A DNA stretch of 38,705 nt. Origin: Actinomycetes bacterium (GTDB taxonomy: Bacteria; Actinomycetota; Actinomycetes; Nanopelagicales; Nanopelagicaceae). Location of the stretch: the NCBI GenBank assembly GCA_023252155.1, contig JAHEXJ010000013.1:1-38705 (forward strand), given 5' to 3'. Made by a program: the position numbers and the translations under genes. Positions 22,655-36,405 of the stretch are shown piece by piece (the stretch's first letter is position 1; the number at the start of each line of letters is the position of its first letter). A model generated the notes under the pieces. The model saw nothing but the letters and a program-made list of their open reading frames with translations, was not told where the DNA came from and ran no database searches.

Positions 22655-23305
22655 GTGAGAATCAGTGTATTTGTAGTTGACGACCACGAACTTGTGCGCC
22701 GAGGACTGATTGATCTCATTAGTGCCGAAGATGACCTTGAAGTAGTGGGTCAAGGTGGAAGCGTCCGCGATGCCTTAATCAATTTGGTACCCATCGCTGC
22801 CAACCCACCCCAAGTTGCGGTTCTCGATGTCCGACTACCTGATGGCAACGGAATCGAACTTTGTCGGGAAATACGTTCGCTTTATCCCAATACGCACGTA
22901 CTCATGCTTACTTCATTCTCTGATGATGAGGCACTTCTTGGCGCAGTTCTTGGCGGTGCAAGTGGATTTGTCATCAAGGACATCAAAAATCTCGATCTGC
23001 TCGATGCCATACGCAAAGTCGCGGGCGGAGCCAGCCTGCTTGATCCGTTGATTACAACGATTGTTCGTGGTCGCCTTCGCGACGCAAGCAATCCGGCAGG
23101 TGGCGTGCATGAATTGACGGACCAAGAGCGCAAAGTTCTCGAACACATCGGCGAAGGCTTAACTAATCGTCAAATTGCCAACTCGATGTTTCTGGCGGAG
23201 AAGACAGTCAAGAATTATGTATCCTCTCTGCTATCCAAATTGGGCCTCGAACGCAGAACGCAGGCAGCAGCTCTTGCAGTGAGGCTGGGTCTGGGCAGAT
23301 CCTAA
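22655..23305 (+). CDS. DosR/DevR-like NarL-family response regulator
   Basis: A 216-residue two-component response regulator. The receiver domain (1-120) has the acidic pair DD at 9-10, phospho-acceptor Asp58 in VAVLDVRLPDGNG, and Lys in FVIKDIK near 107. The LuxR-type helix-turn-helix (about 150-210) has LTDQERKVLEHIGEGLTNRQ and MFLAEKTVKNYVSSLLSKLG. The wording of both ends closely follows mycobacterial DosR/DevR, the hypoxia and NO responder. It starts with GTG 23 bases after the leu regulator and converges on a DosS-like kinase, overlapping stop codons by 4 bases. Targets may include the nearby nar genes, but that is inference. Confidence 0.9.
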   Translation: MRISVFVVDDHELVRRGLIDLISAEDDLEVVGQGGSVRDALINLVPIAANPPQVAVLDVRLPDGNGIELCREIRSLYPNTHVLMLTSFSDDEALLGAVLGGASGFVIKDIKNLDLLDAIRKVAGGASLLDPLITTIVRGRLRDASNPAGGVHELTDQERKVLEHIGEGLTNRQIANSMFLAEKTVKNYVSSLLSKLGLERRTQAAALAVRLGLGRS

Positions 23306-24441
23306 AATCTCACTTTCCAGATTGCTCGCGTACCCCCCATGCCTAATTTATTGATTTCAAAACTACCATTTAACTTTTCAGCTCTGGTTGCCAGATTAAG
23401 AAGCCCGCTTCTTGGCACACCATCTTCGAACCCAACGCCATCATCGGTCACTCGGATCTCACAACCAGATATCAAGCAGATTAACTGCACTTCCACGTTC
23501 TGGGCGTTCGAATGCTTGATCGCATTGGAGAGAAGTTCTCTTAAGACAGCAAAAATCTGCTCTGCGATATCTCCCACTAGCACCGTATCAATTGATCCAT
23601 TGAATTCGCAGGAAATATTCATGGGGGAACTGCTTCGCAACGAGTTGATTTCATCCTGAATGCGCGCGCGCAAGGTCCGCCCGCCCATCCGGTCTTGCAA
23701 GGCAAAAACAGTATTTCGTATTTGCTGGACGGTGGAATCCAAATTGTCGATTGCTTCGCGCACCCTCTCAAGATCTCGCACAGGCAATTTGGGATCCTTA
23801 GTGATTGCCTGCAATGACAAGCCTGTTGCGAATAATCGCTGGACAACTAGATCATGCAAATCTTGAGCGATCCGTTCGCGTTCGGCAAGAACTATTACGC
23901 GATGTTGTGCTTCTTGGCCACGAGCGTTATCTATCGCGACTCCTGCTGCCGACGCGAGGGCACTAACCAGTTGCTCATCCTCTTCGGTGAAATCTTCCCC
24001 GCCGCGTTTTTCTGTCAGATAGAGACTTCCGTAGATTTCGTCGCGAATTCGAATCGGCACGCCTAGAAAAGAACTCATTGCAGGGTGTCCAGAAGGAAAA
24101 CCCACCGAAGCGGGGTGCGAACTTATCGGGTTCACACGCAATGTCGTCGGATGGGTGAGAAGGTGGCCTAAGAGCCCTTTGCCTTCGGGGAAAGAAGCCA
24201 TTTCATCGGCCGTTTCCTCGCTGATTCCCACATAGGTAAATTCTTCGAGACTTCCGTCTTTTGCAATGGCACCTAATGCGCCATACGTTGCACCAGAAAT
24301 TGCAACAGCATTTTCAACCAGGCGCCGCAAGGATGCTCTTAAATCCTCGCCTTTGGCGATGTCGATAACTGCCTCAGATAGCGAGGTTAAACGACTCGGG
24401 GCCATCCCCGAAGTCTGCCCTCTCTTATCCGAGTAAGCCAC
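23302..24441 (-). CDS. GAF-domain sensor histidine kinase (DosS/DevS-like)
   Basis: A 379-residue cytoplasmic kinase with one GAF domain (about 30-175). The GAF region has ISGATYGALGAIAKDGSLEE, ISSHPASVGFPSGHPAMSSF and LGVPIRIRDEIYGSLYLTEK, closely resembling DevS/DosT GAF-A, which binds haem. His119 (in SGHPAM) is a candidate haem ligand by memory of that alignment. The transmitter has the phosphorylated His196 in ERIAQDLHDLVVQRL and an ATPase domain with ELLSNAIKHS and DDGVGFEDG. Start is GTG; an ATG 12 codons downstream is possible. It lies 18 bases after the hemerythrin gene on the same strand, forming an operon, and its likely partner is the convergent response regulator. Confidence 0.88.
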   Translation of the reverse strand: MAYSDKRGQTSGMAPSRLTSLSEAVIDIAKGEDLRASLRRLVENAVAISGATYGALGAIAKDGSLEEFTYVGISEETADEMASFPEGKGLLGHLLTHPTTLRVNPISSHPASVGFPSGHPAMSSFLGVPIRIRDEIYGSLYLTEKRGGEDFTEEDEQLVSALASAAGVAIDNARGQEAQHRVIVLAERERIAQDLHDLVVQRLFATGLSLQAITKDPKLPVRDLERVREAIDNLDSTVQQIRNTVFALQDRMGGRTLRARIQDEINSLRSSSPMNISCEFNGSIDTVLVGDIAEQIFAVLRELLSNAIKHSNAQNVEVQLICLISGCEIRVTDDGVGFEDGVPRSGLLNLATRAEKLNGSFEINKLGMGGTRAIWKVRF

Positions 24442-24459: not shown

Positions 24460-25239
24460 TTAGCTCTCTCGAACAAACTGAAGTCGCCATACTTCTGGTC
24501 CGCTCTCAAGGTATGCGATGTTGAAACGACCTGGAGTGCGCGCCTCAATCTGATTGAGCAACGGCAAAGGATCGTGAGGTGCAACAAGCACCATGCCTGT
24601 ACCAGCTGCAACCGAATCGAGGGCACCAAAGATGGTTGCGTGACGGATAGCGTGCGGAACTGCGCGAGCATCGAGTTCTGGATAAAGCTCTGAGGAATCG
24701 TCATGTCCGCAGTTGCATTCACCACCGCAGCCATCTTCGGAACTCTCTGTCGATTCTCCTAGGAGTTCGTGCATTCCCTCAAGCAGTTGACCAAGTGAAA
24801 CATCCTTAGAAGCGGCCAATAACGGCAGGATTTGTTCATTTTCCTTCACTAAGTGCGATTCAAAAATTGCTCCTAGCGCTTTTGCCTTTGCGGCAGCAAG
24901 TACCGGCGTGGACGCTAATCGGATCCCCTCAACCAGAGCACTGATTTCGCGGTGTTCGGCAATCATGGCATCCACCAAGAGCCGAGCCGTGGGATCCTCA
25001 TGAGCTTTGGGATACATCGTCGCTTCTTCAGCCAGGGCGTGTGGCATGAGTTCGCTTTCACACCAATCCAACAGCAGCCATGTTGCCTTCAATGAGGCTG
25101 CCTCATCGCCGCTAATAGCCGTATTTAAAAGCCGTTCAATATGACGAGCCAAAGTCGCCGACAGTTGGGCATGGTGCTCCATTACTGCCTCAACTGCCTG
25201 TGCATCCTGCTCGCTACTTGCCACCACAACTGCGCTCAT
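24460..25239 (-). CDS. Hemerythrin HHE domain - DUF2249 fusion protein
   Basis: A 259-residue protein with two domains. Residues 18-145 are a hemerythrin HHE fold with likely diiron ligands in VMEHHAQL, PHALAEEATMYP, AEHREI and ESHLVKENEQILP. Residues 186-259 match DUF2249 (LDARAVPHAIRHATIFGALD to the C-terminus). A short acidic linker (162-184) contains C171, C175 and C177 in DGCGGECNCGHDD. Hemerythrins bind O2 or NO, and HHE-DUF2249 proteins often lie near denitrification or NO-stress genes. I start at the ATG at 25239 because GAGGG lies 7 bases upstream. It is the first gene of an operon with the sensor kinase. Confidence 0.86.
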   Translation of the reverse strand: MSAVVVASSEQDAQAVEAVMEHHAQLSATLARHIERLLNTAISGDEAASLKATWLLLDWCESELMPHALAEEATMYPKAHEDPTARLLVDAMIAEHREISALVEGIRLASTPVLAAAKAKALGAIFESHLVKENEQILPLLAASKDVSLGQLLEGMHELLGESTESSEDGCGGECNCGHDDSSELYPELDARAVPHAIRHATIFGALDSVAAGTGMVLVAPHDPLPLLNQIEARTPGRFNIAYLESGPEVWRLQFVRES

Positions 25240-25294
25240 TCGAATTCCCTCTTCCAACGTGGACTTGAGATGTTGAGCCTTTCGGCGCATCGAC

Positions 25295-25310
25295 CCACCA
25301 AATGCGGTGG
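25295..25310. promoter_or_regulatory. Inverted repeat between hemerythrin and winged-helix regulator genes
   Basis: CCACC, six-base spacer AAATGC, GGTGG, in the 102-base divergent region. For the plus-strand regulator it covers the -35 position, 18 bases ahead of a TACACT -10 (25329-25334) and a GTG at 25342. That placement suits repression, possibly autoregulation by the adjacent regulator, with the hemerythrin-kinase operon under the same control. Confidence 0.45.
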
Positions 25311-25341
25311 ATCCTGCTGAAACTTTACTACACTTTATTCC

Positions 25342-26070
25342 GTGGAAACTAATACTGTGACGCAAAGATCTCCCAAGACCCAATTTGGACCGCTCCCTGG
25401 CCCTTCCCCGATGATGCGCGTTCGCAACCTTTCCAAGGCGAGAGCAAAAATCCTTGAATTTTTATCGCAAGGAACATGCACTGTCGCATCGCTTGCGACA
25501 AAAACGGGGCAGCACGAGAACACCATTCGCGAACATTTGGACGCACTCGTCGAAGACGATCTTGCGATCAGATACCAGTCCATTGAACATTCGCGAGGAC
25601 GACCAGCATGGTTTTACCGCGCCGTGAATGAAACGGATCGGCCGGTCTTCAACGAATACTCCGGATTGGCATCGGCATTGGCCGGATCAATAGCGCGCAC
25701 CAGCTCACATCCAATAGAAGATGCAATTGAAGCCGGTATCTCTTGGGCAAAAGTTCTCGTGACTGAGTCAAGAAAGAACTCCAAGGGTGAAGATGAGAAA
25801 GCGAAGAACGCTATAACATCGCGTCGCAATGTCATCTCCCTTTTCAAAAATTTGGGCTTTGCGCCAAAGCACAATCCTGATCTAAGTAAAATTAAACTCA
25901 CACGCTGTCCGTTACTCGATGCCGCTCGGCAATACCCCGACATAATCTGCAGCGTTCATCTTGGAATCGTCCGCGGTGCACTCGCTGAATTTGGCGCGGC
26001 TCCCGCAGCCGTACTGAAGGCAGAACTAGAACCTTTCGCGCTCAAGGGGGCCTGTCTAGTCAGAATGTGA
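25342..26070 (+). CDS. Winged-helix regulator with C-terminal cysteines (SufR-like, possible Fe-S sensor)
   Basis: A 242-residue predicted regulator of the COG2345/SufR-like type. The winged helix (about 34-95) includes AKILEFLSQGTCTVASLATK, HENTIREHLDALVEDDL and SRGRPAWFYRA. The C-terminal half has C189, C203 (RCPLLDAARQYPDIICSVH) and C238 near the end, with H206. SufR proteins hold an Fe-S cluster with three cysteines at roughly similar places, though the last spacing is wider here. An Fe-S or NO/O2-sensitive repressor is thus likely but unproven. The GTG start is 7 bases after a TACACT -10 and has no Shine-Dalgarno, so leaderless translation is probable. Its 3' end overlaps the convergent channel gene by 15 bases. 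Confidence 0.75.
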   Translation: METNTVTQRSPKTQFGPLPGPSPMMRVRNLSKARAKILEFLSQGTCTVASLATKTGQHENTIREHLDALVEDDLAIRYQSIEHSRGRPAWFYRAVNETDRPVFNEYSGLASALAGSIARTSSHPIEDAIEAGISWAKVLVTESRKNSKGEDEKAKNAITSRRNVISLFKNLGFAPKHNPDLSKIKLTRCPLLDAARQYPDIICSVHLGIVRGALAEFGAAPAAVLKAELEPFALKGACLVRM

Positions 26071-27087
26071 ATTGAGCCAACGACTCCCACGGAAAACCAT
26101 CAAAGAAGTGACAGTCAACCAAACAACGCCTGCGATCCACGTTCCCACGTGACCTATCGTGGTAATGAATGGCATCTTCATTTGCCGTCCGAATAACATG
26201 CTTGCGGTGGAGTACATGCCAAGGGGAAAGACAATGCTCCACAATCCCGTCTCGTATTTCGCCGGCTCGCCCTTCGAGATGTGACGCCAGAACCCAAAAA
26301 CTACGAGAAGTGGAACCCACCAGGTGCCAAAGGCCCACAAGACATAGGTGAATCCGGAAACAAATCCAGTTGTTGCCTGCATGACGGACAGATGCTTGGG
26401 CAATGCGAGAATTCGTGCTCCAGCAAGCACGGTAATTGCTGTTGCGCCCATGTATATCCAGTAGGAGGGGCTGAACGTCTTTGGCTCATTCGATCTTGAT
26501 AGGAGTCGCCAGGTTATGAGCGTGGCCAACATCAAATACAGCAAGACGCCAATACCCCATAAAGCTACAGCGGCCGCACCCAGAAATTCCGTAGCGCGAT
26601 CGTGACCGATGACCGCCGCAACTGCTGCAAGGGATTGGGTAGCAACAACCCAAAGAAACCAACTACCGTTCACCTCCGAGACGACGGGAACATCGCGCCC
26701 GCGAAGAATCAAAGTTCCTGGAATTCCATAGGTGAGGATTAGCCATACTGGAGTGGCTAGTAGTGCCATCAAAATCGTAAGCGTTGGCGCGTTTGACGAG
26801 TAAAGTCGAATTCCTACTACGTTTATTCCCGCAATGATCGTGAAGAAACCAAAAGCTCTGCTTGGCTCGTATACATCCAAGACTATGTCCCCTCGATAAA
26901 GCGCCAGGCGCACAATTATGGCTCCGAGCAGGATTATCAATCCGATGATTGCAACTGAAAGCAGAATGTTTGAAATAGATTGTTGATTGATTGTGTGAAA
27001 AGCGGTTGACACGATGCCCGTTGCCATAACAAAAGCAAACGAGCCAGACGGCATGTGACGAACAGTGCTAGCTAATCGATCGACCAT
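26056..27087 (-). CDS. TDT/TehA-SLAC1 family membrane transporter or anion channel
   Basis: A 343-residue integral membrane protein with about ten hydrophobic helices. The start HMPSGSFAFVMATGIVSTAF is a recognisable TehA/TDT family opening. Further family-like segments are FRGSRWLNSHSD at the C-terminus and FVSGFTYVLWAFGTWWVPLL near 240. The family includes bacterial tellurite-resistance TehA, dicarboxylate/malate and sulfite exporters, and plant SLAC1 anion channels permeable to nitrate. Its position, divergent from narG with a 53- to 86-base shared promoter and with no NarK gene in the window, makes nitrate or nitrite passage a reasonable hypothesis. Substrate cannot be read from sequence. 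Confidence 0.82.
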   Translation of the reverse strand: MVDRLASTVRHMPSGSFAFVMATGIVSTAFHTINQQSISNILLSVAIIGLIILLGAIIVRLALYRGDIVLDVYEPSRAFGFFTIIAGINVVGIRLYSSNAPTLTILMALLATPVWLILTYGIPGTLILRGRDVPVVSEVNGSWFLWVVATQSLAAVAAVIGHDRATEFLGAAAVALWGIGVLLYLMLATLITWRLLSRSNEPKTFSPSYWIYMGATAITVLAGARILALPKHLSVMQATTGFVSGFTYVLWAFGTWWVPLLVVFGFWRHISKGEPAKYETGLWSIVFPLGMYSTASMLFGRQMKMPFITTIGHVGTWIAGVVWLTVTSLMVFRGSRWLNSHSD

Positions 27088-27117
27088 ACTCGAACGCTCT
27101 CAGCCGACGCTCGTCTG

Positions 27118-27142
27118 AAAATAGGGTCTTTGTACCTATTTT
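27118..27142. promoter_or_regulatory. Perfect inverted repeat AAAATAGG-N9-CCTATTTT in the channel/narG promoter
   Basis: Eight-base arms match perfectly across a 9-base spacer. The repeat lies midway between the divergent channel gene (start 27087) and narG. It overlaps a possible TTG start of narG at 27141, which argues for the ATG at 27174. Within it, TACCTAT (27133-27139) fits the NarL heptamer TACYYMT known from enterobacteria, but the opposing half does not, so this may be coincidence. Confidence 0.55.
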
Positions 27143-27173
27143 GAACCGATTAGCGATCAACGAGACTTGTGCC

Positions 27174-30100
27174 ATGGGTAGAGATCTTCAAATAGAGACA
27201 GGCGTGGAAGAAAGTCTCGTTAAGTTCAGCCGGTTCTTCGTCAAAGGTGAAATTTCATCCGACCTTCAAAGTGTCACAAAGGCTGGCGGACGTAGCGGCG
27301 ATGTCTTCTATAGAGATCGTTGGAGTCACGACAAAGTGGTCCGTTCGACCCACGGCGTAAATTGCACTGGATCGTGCTCATGGAAAGTTTACGTCAAGGA
27401 CGGCATCATCACTTGGGAAACACAACAAACTGATTACCCTTCGGTTGGTCCGAATTCTCCTGAATATGAGCCACGCGGATGTCCACGTGGCGCCGCGTTC
27501 TCTTGGTACACCTACTCTCCTACTCGAATTCGCTTCCCCTATATTCGAGGTGTCCTACTTGAGATGTACCGCGAAGCGAAATCGCGCCTTGGAGATCCCG
27601 TCTTGGCATGGGCTGACGTTGTTGACGATCCGGAGCGTCGCAAGAAATATCACCGTGCGCGCGGCAAGGGTGGCCTTGTTCGCGCCAATTGGACTGAGAT
27701 CTCAGAAATAATCGCGGCGGCGCATGTCTACACGATTAAGAAGTACGGCCCCGATCGCGTTTTTGGTTTTTCTCCCATCCCCGCCATGTCGATGGCGTCA
27801 CATGCCGCAGGCGCGCGCTTCATCTCATTAATGGGTGGGTCGATGCTTTCATTTTACGATTGGTACGCCGATTTACCAGTTGCATCACCACAAGTATTCG
27901 GCGATCAAACAGATGTGCCCGAATCTGCAGATTGGTTCAATTCAACCTACCTGATGATGTGGGGTTCGAATGTTCCTGTGACACGGACACCCGATGCCCA
28001 CTTTATGACGGAGGCGCGTTACAGAGGACAGAAAGTTATTGCGGTAAGTCCTGACTATGCAGACAACACCAAGTTCGCTGACGAATGGGTAGCCCCGCAC
28101 CCCGGCACGGACGGTGCGCTTGGAATGGCGATGGGCCACGTTATTTTGAAAGAATTTTTTATCGATCAACAAGTCCCAAGATTCACTGACTATGTGAAGA
28201 AATATACGGATCTGCCTTACCTAGTTTCATTGCGTGAGAAAGACGGCGCATGGGTGCCAGATAAGTTCCTTGTCGCATCCGATCTTGGTGACACTTCCGA
28301 AGGATCGAAATTCAAAACGGTCATGCTCGATTCCAGTACTGGCAAAACTTTCATACCTAATGGCTCATTGGGTCATCGCTACAACGACTCGTCTATGGGC
28401 AAATGGAATTTGGATCTTGAAGGCATTGATCCTTCACTTTCGATCTTTGATAACCCCAATTCCAATCCAGTGACCGTGCTGATGCCTCGCTTTGATATGG
28501 GTCAAGAAGCTGCCGAAAGCGGCGGCGTTTTGCGACGAGGTGTACCGGCAATCCAGATAGGCGCAAAGAAAGTAACAACTGTCTACGACTTGATGTTGGC
28601 CCAATACGGTGTCGGCCGCGAGGGATTAGACGGTGATTGGCCGACTGGATATGACGATCCATCACCGTACACACCATCGTGGCAAGAAGAGATCACAAGC
28701 GTTCCTGCAGTGCAGGCGATTCGAATAGCCCGTGAATTCGCCCAAAATGCGATCGACTCGGAAGGCCGCTCCATGATTCTCATGGGCGCTGGGACAAATC
28801 ATTGGTTCCACTCGGACACTATGTACCGCACGTTCTTAGCGCTCGTCACCCTCACCGGCTGTCAAGGCGTCAATGGCGGCGGTTGGGCTCATTACGTCGG
28901 ACAAGAAAAATGCCGACCGGTAACTGGATGGGCACAACTAGCATTTGGCGCGGATTGGACACGTCCTGCACGCCAGATGATCGGAACGGCGTTCTGGTAC
29001 GTAACCACAGATCAATGGCGCTACGACGCACTAGGTTCGGAATTACTTGCAACTCCACTTGGTGAGAATCGATTTAAAGGCATGGCGGCGATCGATGTGC
29101 TCGCGCAATCTGCCCGAATGGGATGGATGCCCTCTCACCCCTCCCTCGATCGGAATTCACTTGACTTAGTTGACGAGGCGCGGGCGAAGGGAATAGACCC
29201 AGCAGAATACGTCGTCAGTGAATTGAAGAGTGGAAAACTCAAATTCGCAATTGAAGATCCAGATGCACCAGAGAATTGGCCACGAATACTCACTGTTTGG
29301 CGCGCAAACATCCTAGGTTCATCCAGCAAGGGAAATGAATATTTTCTGAAACACCTACTGGGAACGGATAGTTCGGTACGGGCGGAGGAAAACGCACCGG
29401 AAGACCGACCACGAGATGTTAAATGGCGAGAAGACGCTTCAGACGGAAAACTCGATCTTCTCGTGTCTGTCGATTTTCGAATGACAAGTACGGGACTATT
29501 TGGAGATATCTTGCTTCCGGCTGCAACTTGGTACGAAAAACATGATCTTTCAAGTACTGATATGCATCCATTCGTCCACGCATTTACTCCGGCCATCAAT
29601 CCGCCTTGGGAAACCAAAACCGATTACGACATCTTTCAAATGCTTGGGCGGCAAGTCTCGGAACAAGCTAAAAGTCATCTCGGCGAACGCGAAGATCTGA
29701 TGGTTGTTCCACTAACGCATGACACACCAGATGCCATGGCAAACCCCGGTGGAGTGGTGCTCGATTGGCACAAGGGAGAAGTAGAACCTATCCCCGGAGT
29801 GACAATGCCAAAACTTATCGTCGTAAAAAGGGATTACACCCAGATCGGCGAAAAGATGGCGGCCCTTGGCCCGCTCATAGATCAATTAGGAACCAACACA
29901 AAGGGCGTCCCCGTTTCAGTTCTGCCAGAGGTCGAACTTCTTGGACGGACAAACGGTGTGATTTCACATGGCGTTGCAGCAGGCCGTCCATCACTTGCTC
30001 GAGACGTCGATGCTTGCGAAGCAATTCTCGCCCTGTCAGGTACAACAAATGGACGTGTCGCAGTTGCAGGTTTCAGAGCGTTGGAGAAGAGAACCGGTCA

Positions 30101-30857
30101 GCAATTAACTGACTTGGCCTTAGACAATGAAGGCAAGCGCATCACCTTTGCCGATACCCAAACTAGACCCGTTCCAGTAATTACAAGCCCTGAATGGTCG
30201 GGTTCTGAACATGGCGGGCGTCGCTACACGGCATTTGCCATAAACGTAGAACGACTAAAGCCTTGGCACACTCTTACTGGTCGCCAACATTTCTTTGTGG
30301 ATCATGACTGGATGAGCGAACTTGGCGAGCAGATGCCAATCTTCAGGCCGCCACTAAATATGCATCGCATTTTCGGCAATCAGGCAAACGGGGTCGAAAA
30401 GGAAGTCACGGTTCGCTACTTAACCCCGCACTCAAAGTGGTCGATTCACTCCGAGTATCAAGACAATCTCTTTATGCTTTCACTCTCTCGTGGTGGGCAG
30501 GAAATTTGGATGAGCGTCGAGGACGCCGAAACCATCGGAGTAAAAGACAACGAGTGGATTGAGGCTTACAACCGGAACGGTGTCGTGGTTGCGAGGGCAT
30601 GTGTTTCACATCGAATGCCAACCGGGACCGTCTTTATGTATCATGCAAAGGACCGTGTCGTTGACGTTCCACTTGCGGAAACTTCGGGCAAACGTGGCGG
30701 TATCCATAACTCACTTACCCGCCTGATGCTCAAGCCAACCCATCTCATTGGCGGTTATGCGCAATTGACCTTCGCTTTCAACTATCTCGGACCTACCGGC
30801 AATCAGCGCGATGAAGTAACAGTGATTCGTCGTCGATCCCAAGATGTGGAGTACTAA
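27174..30857 (+). CDS. narG: Respiratory nitrate reductase alpha subunit
   Basis: Molybdopterin catalytic subunit of the membrane-bound quinol-nitrate oxidoreductase, reducing nitrate to nitrite on the cytoplasmic side. Numbering from the ATG at 27174 (1,227 aa), the FS0 cluster ligands are His60, Cys64 and Cys68 in STHGVNCTGSCSWKVY, and Cys103 in PRGCPRG. The Mo region is SFYDWYADLPVASPQ followed by DQTDVPESADWF. GGWAHYVGQEKCRP and YLTPHSKWSIHSEYQDN later in the chain are also NarG-typical. There is no twin-arginine export signal. A TTG 11 codons upstream is the alternative start. The stop overlaps the narH ATG by one base. The gene is intact and full length. Confidence 0.97.
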   Translation: MGRDLQIETGVEESLVKFSRFFVKGEISSDLQSVTKAGGRSGDVFYRDRWSHDKVVRSTHGVNCTGSCSWKVYVKDGIITWETQQTDYPSVGPNSPEYEPRGCPRGAAFSWYTYSPTRIRFPYIRGVLLEMYREAKSRLGDPVLAWADVVDDPERRKKYHRARGKGGLVRANWTEISEIIAAAHVYTIKKYGPDRVFGFSPIPAMSMASHAAGARFISLMGGSMLSFYDWYADLPVASPQVFGDQTDVPESADWFNSTYLMMWGSNVPVTRTPDAHFMTEARYRGQKVIAVSPDYADNTKFADEWVAPHPGTDGALGMAMGHVILKEFFIDQQVPRFTDYVKKYTDLPYLVSLREKDGAWVPDKFLVASDLGDTSEGSKFKTVMLDSSTGKTFIPNGSLGHRYNDSSMGKWNLDLEGIDPSLSIFDNPNSNPVTVLMPRFDMGQEAAESGGVLRRGVPAIQIGAKKVTTVYDLMLAQYGVGREGLDGDWPTGYDDPSPYTPSWQEEITSVPAVQAIRIAREFAQNAIDSEGRSMILMGAGTNHWFHSDTMYRTFLALVTLTGCQGVNGGGWAHYVGQEKCRPVTGWAQLAFGADWTRPARQMIGTAFWYVTTDQWRYDALGSELLATPLGENRFKGMAAIDVLAQSARMGWMPSHPSLDRNSLDLVDEARAKGIDPAEYVVSELKSGKLKFAIEDPDAPENWPRILTVWRANILGSSSKGNEYFLKHLLGTDSSVRAEENAPEDRPRDVKWREDASDGKLDLLVSVDFRMTSTGLFGDILLPAATWYEKHDLSSTDMHPFVHAFTPAINPPWETKTDYDIFQMLGRQVSEQAKSHLGEREDLMVVPLTHDTPDAMANPGGVVLDWHKGEVEPIPGVTMPKLIVVKRDYTQIGEKMAALGPLIDQLGTNTKGVPVSVLPEVELLGRTNGVISHGVAAGRPSLARDVDACEAILALSGTTNGRVAVAGFRALEKRTGQQLTDLALDNEGKRITFADTQTRPVPVITSPEWSGSEHGGRRYTAFAINVERLKPWHTLTGRQHFFVDHDWMSELGEQMPIFRPPLNMHRIFGNQANGVEKEVTVRYLTPHSKWSIHSEYQDNLFMLSLSRGGQEIWMSVEDAETIGVKDNEWIEAYNRNGVVVARACVSHRMPTGTVFMYHAKDRVVDVPLAETSGKRGGIHNSLTRLMLKPTHLIGGYAQLTFAFNYLGPTGNQRDEVTVIRRRSQDVEY

Positions 30858-35784: not shown

Positions 35785-35860
35785 TGGTAGCCCCGAAGGG
35801 ATTCGAACCCTCGTAGCTGGCTTGAGAAGCCAGAGTCCTAGGCCGCTAGACGACGGGGCC
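35785..35860 (-). tRNA. tRNA-Glu (anticodon CTC), CCA encoded
   Basis: Cloverleaf on the minus strand: acceptor GGCCCCG pairs with CGGGGCT (one G-U), anticodon stem CTGGC/GCCAG around loop TTCTCAA with anticodon CTC, and T-arm GAGGG-TTCGAAT-CCCTT. Discriminator A at 35788 is followed by a genomically encoded CCA (35785-35787). It reads GAG codons. The nearby gltX encodes the cognate synthetase. Confidence 0.96.
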
Positions 35861-36220: not shown

Positions 36221-36333
36221 GATCTTCTCCGATTTTTGACTGACCCAGGGCCGGATCAGACGTAAAAACGATAAGTGACCGCAGCGGTTTTTGCTAGAGC
36301 GTTGAGATAATAATAAATGAACAGACTACTTTG

Positions 36334-36405
36334 CTGGGGTACCAGGACTCGAACCTAGACTTACTGAACCAGAATCAGCAGGGCTGCCAATTACCCCATA
36401 CCCCA
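36334..36405 (-). tRNA. tRNA-Gln (anticodon CTG)
   Basis: Minus-strand cloverleaf: acceptor TGGGGTA pairs with TACCCCA, anticodon stem GCTGA/TCAGT around loop TTCTGGT with anticodon CTG, and T-arm with GGTTCGAGTCC. The discriminator is G, followed by CAA, so CCA is not encoded, unlike the neighbouring tRNA-Glu. It starts 28 bases after gltX ends, suggesting co-transcription. Confidence 0.96.

Follow-up and report, generated by a model that had tools for sequence, protein, structure and literature searches.

The DosR/DosS-type gas-sensing system is best known from mycobacterial dormancy, and in DosS two GAF domains precede the kinase core. For mycobacterial DosR both a stringent consensus, GGGACTTNNGNCCCT, and a weak one, RRGNCYWNNGNMM, have been published (PMC6448022), and the DevR sites nearest to the transcription start are described as overlapping the -35 region (PMC3029386). 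In Streptomyces the DosR-family regulator OsdR has the consensus AGGGCCGATCGGCCCT, and for narG2 of S. coelicolor an OsdR site, AGGGACCTTCGGCCCC, is predicted at -53, the narG2 operon being reported at a lower level in an osdR mutant at 36 h (PMC5069765).

We have analysed a stretch of 38,705 nucleotides (the window; contig JAHEXJ010000013.1) from a member of the Nanopelagicaceae, in which a 25-bp box without assigned strand, AAAATAGGGTCTTTGTACCTATTTT (27118-27142), lies between narG and a divergently oriented gene. The arrangement resembles, with differences, the one known for DosR or OsdR and nar genes, and, judged from sequence comparison, the box is likely to be a variant DosR-type activator site for narG which probably serves the divergent gene as well. 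Its core, GGGTCTTTGTACCT (27124-27137, plus strand), has the 14-bp layout of DosR and OsdR boxes, with the centre between 27130 and 27131. It agrees with the stringent mycobacterial consensus at 8 of the 12 specified bases and with the weak consensus at 8 of 9, a T standing for a G. Over the 28 sites found 5′ of narG in the family, agreement with the stringent consensus ranges from 7/12 (G005) to 11/12 (G088 and G090), and the weak consensus is matched in full at 11 sites and at 8 of 9 positions in the other 17. G088 and G090 (loci L155 and L157) carry tandem boxes, the distal one, GGGTCTTAAGTCCC, 37 bp upstream of the proximal one, GGGTCTTTAGACCC, and it is the proximal box that scores 11/12, the distal one scoring 10/12. 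The box would probably work like a DosR box and be bound by the DosR orthologue, its layout agreeing with the published boxes and its letters being a variant.

A close parallel is that of OsdR and narG2 in S. coelicolor, where likewise a DosR-family regulator, a 16-bp box of the form AGGG-C....G-CC and a nitrate reductase operon near the regulator gene are found together; the 16-mer of the window, AGGGTCTTTGTACCTA, which is the counterpart of the OsdR narG2 site, begins at -51. However, 27 transcription units of S. coelicolor have predicted OsdR sites, one of them at osdR itself, according to the same source (PMC5069765), whereas here a search of 21 genomes of the genus placed all 11 sites with 0-1 mismatch at narG, with none in the neighbourhood of the regulator gene. 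In addition, the core reads GGGTC instead of GGGCC or GGGAC, and the A/T flanks are conserved. With the DosR/DevR boxes of Mycobacterium tuberculosis, as between the divergent narK2 and Rv1738, the box would have in common a NarL-type regulator with the same DNA-contact residues, the overlap with the -35 region, nitrate genes as targets and divergent promoters, but there several boxes act cooperatively, while here a single box stands midway between the start codons and two are present only in G088 and G090. The staphylococcal NreC site, too, is a GC-rich palindrome at nar promoters, acted on by a response regulator and involved in oxygen-responsive nitrate respiration; NreB is described as sensing oxygen by an iron-sulphur cluster (PMC8139620), whereas the regulator considered here is nearest to DosR.

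The inverted repeat and its conservation in the family

The initial annotation had reported a perfect 8-9-8 inverted repeat centred between two start codons, and both statements are borne out by recalculation: AAAATAGG (27118-27125) and CCTATTTT (27135-27142) are exact reverse complements across a 9-base gap, and the centre of the repeat, 27130, compares with a midpoint of 27130.5 between the start codons at 27087 (minus strand) and 27174 (plus strand). A TTG at 27141 shares two bases with the repeat. Four perfect 8-9-8 repeats were found in the 38.7-kb window against 0.59 expected, the expectation applying to one gap length and to DNA of equal composition. With so many of them in the window, a repeat of this kind is weak evidence and was given no weight by itself; it is conservation that gives it significance.

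A search with the first 275 residues of NarG gave a match in 29 of 296 genomes of the family; a search for NarG in 21 genomes of the genus gave a match in 12, that in G009 being a fragment of 42 residues only. The DNA 5′ of narG was read in all 29 genomes (in G228 via a second contig, L161), and a near-identical box was present in 28 of them. In 27 genomes the box has no more than two mismatches in the 14 specified bases, its centre lying 43 bp from the ATG of narG in 26 and 44 bp in G013; the box of G103, AAATAGGGGCTAAAGACCCTATTT, is more divergent and more symmetrical, and lies 67 bp 5′ of the ATG chosen. Mean pairwise identity over the 27 sites is 0.85 in the 25-bp box, 0.34 in the following 12 bp and 0.40 in the preceding 25 bp, figures to be read with the relatedness of the 27 genomes in mind, by which counts overstate the number of independent events. 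Invariant columns number 12 of 25 (AA-TAG-GTCT, CC and one T). The arms form 5-8 of 8 possible pairs in 25 of the 27 genomes and 3 of 8 in G088 and G090. Conservation in relatives, which had been put forward as a check on the repeat, is thus well seen in the letters and only partly in the pairing of the arms: judged by the alignment, the conserved unit is the core GGGTCTTTnnACC together with its A/T-rich flanks, and not the 8-9-8 arms. On these comparisons the repeat is very probably a regulatory site. A search of plasmids gave no match to 27060-27200.

The one narG-bearing genome that stands apart is G033, in which no site with fewer than four mismatches was found in L158, the 3.8 kb around its narG match, and in which a winged-helix gene lies directly 5′ of narG. 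In G004, narG (L129, 4129-7696) aligns as two overlapping pieces with an internal stop near the 3′ end, which may be due either to an assembly frameshift or to decay of the gene.

The narG promoter and the divergent gene

The narG gene, encoding the alpha subunit of respiratory nitrate reductase (27174-30857, plus strand; TIGR01580, 1651.8 bits), begins with an ATG whose position is fixed relative to the box. Because a consensus search of 26950-27300 found no E. coli-type sigma-70 promoter, -10 hexamers were sought by conservation. With boxes picked by an ATG 43, 44 or 67 bp downstream, the pattern nAnnnT occurs 31 bp from the box centre on the narG side in all 28 genomes, G103 included, while its mean frequency over 42 offsets is 6%. 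The putative -10 hexamer of the window is GAGACT (27162-27167, plus strand), 6 bp 5′ of the ATG; relative to the start of narG the pattern spans -12 to -7 in 26 of 27 genomes and is one base farther away in G013. Its spacing from the ATG is 6-7 bp in 27 of 28 genomes, and conservation would place the start codon at +1. For comparison, the mycobacterial -10 element is given as TANNNT with VANNNT variants, and 24% of the transcripts of M. smegmatis as leaderless (PMC6448022). Since the hexamer is kept at a fixed 31 bp in 28/28, narG is probably leaderless and read from the ATG instead of the TTG. The preference of the initial annotation for the downstream ATG as the narG start is strengthened by the distance of 43-44 bp to the box centre in 27 of 28 genomes, together with the constant -10 spacing.

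The box centre being 31 bp before the putative -10 hexamer in every one of the 28 genomes, the box would overlap the -35 region. Because it would lie at about -43.5, and not over the -10 element or the start, activation fits better than blocking. The earlier proposal that the repeat might block or activate both promoters therefore keeps its activating half, and its reference to both promoters seems well placed for the genus and less clearly so elsewhere.

The divergent gene of the window encodes an anion channel of the SLAC1/TDT type (26056-27087, minus strand; PF03595, E 5.3e-44) and occupies the place held by narK in relatives. Among the other box genomes, all 26 whose sequence reaches far enough have a NarK-type gene divergent from narG, a count from which G005 was left out as its contig ends too soon; for the divergent protein of G015 the best match was TIGR00886, below the cut-off of that model. 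On the side of the SLAC1-type gene, a possible mirrored -10 hexamer, GAGCGT (27094-27099, minus strand), is located 6 bp before the ATG, which falls exactly at the mirrored +1. A minus-strand nAnnnT is present 30 or 31 bp away from the box centre in 26 of 28 genomes, where the background for a pair of neighbouring offsets is 10.5%; this pair was chosen after the narG-side result had been seen. All 11 box genomes of the genus have it, and the two exceptions, G088 and G090, are the genomes with a second box. There is also a second minus-side peak at 41 bp, in 13 of 28 genomes; the full TAnnnT is found there in 12 of 28 (L139-L161), all of one other genus and none of the window's own, and in those 12 genomes it would be a better -10 candidate for narK than the mirrored hexamer. 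The box might still act on this 41-bp element, over the greater distance. Taken together, action of the box on both promoters appears likely in the genus and less clear elsewhere.

It could also be that narG is the only gene served by the box, with an incidental mirrored hexamer and with the SLAC1-type gene read from another weak promoter, and we hold this to be quite possible, if on the less probable side. GAGCGT is a weak -10 element, the better minus-side hexamer at 41 bp is off the mirrored place in 12 of 28 genomes, and at 22 loci with SLAC1 relatives in other bacteria no exact DosR-type core was found in the 130 bp around the gene start. Against this, the mirrored pattern is kept in all 11 box genomes of the genus and in 26 of 28 overall, the SLAC1-type ATG stands precisely at the mirrored +1, and the 41-bp element could still make use of the same box. 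That the repeat should be a chance palindrome, or else an RNA hairpin or terminator, has next to no probability: the window does contain three further perfect 8-9-8 repeats, but this one is conserved far above its flanks, it lies upstream of both putative transcription starts, and no terminator-like site was found by a consensus search of 26950-27300.

Several observations concern the genes around the channel. Between the kinase gene and the box, 24460-27087 holds genes for a haemerythrin-DUF2249 protein, a winged-helix regulator and the SLAC1-type channel, and where the window has these genes G015 and similar relatives have NarK-type transporters, so the set looks like a replacement of narK. 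Relatives of the SLAC1-type and winged-helix genes adjoin narG in L061 and L066, and are on the narG contig in G033. No NarK was found elsewhere in G000 by a search run without a positive control on an assembly that is 83.8% complete. The presence of a SLAC1-type channel in the place of NarK, beside the same site, suggests a role in nitrate or nitrite traffic.

A DosR-like regulator as candidate binder

A DosR/DevR-like response regulator, the proposed binder, is encoded at 22655-23305 (plus strand). It has a receiver domain (PF00072) and a LuxR-type DNA-binding domain (PF00196), and its nearest solved relative is DevR (3c3w, E 6.7e-69), followed by VraR (1e-36); among NCBIfam models, the 25 listed for this protein all scored below their cut-offs. 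Asp58 aligns with the phospho-acceptor Asp54 of DosR, and the recognition helix reads E-K-T-[VI]-K-N at all 30 regulator loci, that of the window included. Lys179, Lys182 and Asn183, the residues given as contacting bases in DosR (PMC4082495), are present at all 30 loci.

The adjoining gene (23302-24441, minus strand) encodes a DosS/DosT-like histidine kinase, the proposed sensor, whose GAF region matches DevS-type haem GAF structures with E 1.3e-45 to 4.7e-40, among them 2vzw, which we take to be the DosT structure, and entries for DevS. His119 and Tyr141 align with the proximal His149 and distal Tyr171 of the haem pocket, the numbering allowing for 5 extra residues and taking the construct to start at residue 63, and haem binding is predicted. 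The kinase has a single GAF region, at about residues 33-171, in contrast to the two GAF domains of DosS.

With orthologues of the regulator accepted at E of at most 1e-50, 30 of the 296 genomes have the regulator, 29 have narG and 27 have both, leaving two with narG alone and three with the regulator alone. By contig number, 24 of these 27 have regulator and narG on a shared contig, the others being G003, G005 and G088. With all candidates scored, no regulator orthologue was found in the two genomes with narG alone, of which G014 (a draft, 95% complete) has the box and G033 does not. The regulator occurs without narG in G008 (100% complete), G203 and G210; in G008 (L133) the DosR-like regulator and kinase are kept, but neither narG nor a box was found. 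In G015, a region some kb ahead of the regulator gene (L124 2982-5708) encodes a further NarL-type regulator, 35% identical, and includes a segment with 32% identity to part of NarH, which suggests another redox gene set.

The initial annotation had named two candidate binders, this regulator and the winged-helix regulator, and the former gains by the comparison: with its orthologues in 27 of the 29 narG genomes and its DNA-contact residues kept at all 30 loci, the DosR-like regulator is probably the natural binder. The latter, encoded at 25342-26070 (plus strand; PF01022) and here set aside, is an ArsR-like protein which could bind the repeat and control both promoters; it is a neighbour of the box, it belongs to a regulator family, and its relatives stand beside narG in G033, L061 and L066, but no relative above 100 bits was found in 24 of the 27 other box genomes, only G015, G017 and G250 having one, and that of G015 is about 189 kb from narG. 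Moreover, G033 has the gene without a box in the 3.8 kb read, and in L061 and L066 the 120 bp next to narG are likewise without one, so that binding by this protein is very improbable. Somewhat less remote, though still improbable, is that another response regulator of the NarL family, for example a nitrate-responsive one, is the true binder. G000 has 11 matches to this family and further NarL-type regulators are matched in all genomes of the genus, the box persists in G014 without the DosR-like orthologue, and staphylococcal nar promoters, too, have a GC-rich palindrome, to which NreC is assigned; what speaks for the DosR-like protein instead is its presence in nearly all narG genomes and its linkage to narG in 24 of 27. 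As to the winged-helix gene itself, its ORF overlaps the haemerythrin-DUF2249 ORF of the minus strand head to head at 25342-25383, and one or both true starts are probably further in.

The proposed switch and the box outside narG promoters

With the DosR-like regulator as binder, one can picture the following course of events. A fall in oxygen or the presence of NO would lead the DosS-like haem-GAF kinase to phosphorylate the neighbouring regulator, a dimer of which would then occupy the box, whose position at about -43.5 would overlap the -35 region, and recruit RNA polymerase, giving a leaderless narGHJI mRNA that begins at the ATG. Less certainly, the same site may drive the divergent transporter gene, narK in relatives and the gene of the SLAC1-type channel here. 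Under a 17-bp spacer the -35 regions would fall at 27139-27144 and 27117-27122, that is at the two ends of the box, and because of this two polymerases would hardly fit together; the narG and divergent promoters would accordingly be predicted to fire alternately. A more elaborate picture, which we offer tentatively and regard as rather unlikely in its entirety, is that of a self-contained DosRS module with one strong site, at the nar promoter, in which one box stands between mirrored promoters and one dimer serves either polymerase, alternate firing keeps reductase and transporter in step, and the SLAC1-type channel has taken over the half that belonged to narK, with its ATG at +1.

If the box works as proposed, a family whose genomes are small (listed at 0.6-2.2 Mb) would have its nitrate respiration coupled to DosR/DosS-type gas sensing. 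The switch would seem to be a local one, the genus searched showing a single strong site per genome, and its strict geometry, with one box, a fixed -10 element and a leaderless narG, would make it a compact model for activation by a single response-regulator dimer.

Our survey gave no indication of a wider regulon in the genus: at up to two mismatches the strong pattern has 21 places in 21 genomes, of which all 11 with 0-1 mismatch are narG sites, and the 10 places with two mismatches are fewer than the 23 control matches. A DosR-like pattern found five narG sites and eight other places, seven of them in mechanical ORFs and one intergenic (L171, in G005); two of the seven (L167 and L173) belong to one gene and are accounted for by the peptide that it encodes there, GLKSS. 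The patterns used are narrow, and weaker sites may exist elsewhere. In the window and in ten loci of other genomes (L124-L133), the surroundings of the regulator and kinase genes contain no box at 0-1 mismatch, so there is no sign of the autoregulation known for OsdR. At 26 loci with more distant narG genes (23 of the 137 matching genomes outside the family, with L057, L061 and L066 added, start codons being guessed), an exact GGGnC....GnCCC within 120 bp was found only in L196 (G480), at -80. No paper on this site was found in the open-access literature by title or the start of the abstract.

Elsewhere in the window, ordinary genes for tRNA-Glu(CTC) and tRNA-Gln(CTG) lie at 35785-35860 and 36333-36405, adjoined by an ORF that we take, from its reading, to encode a glutamyl-tRNA synthetase.
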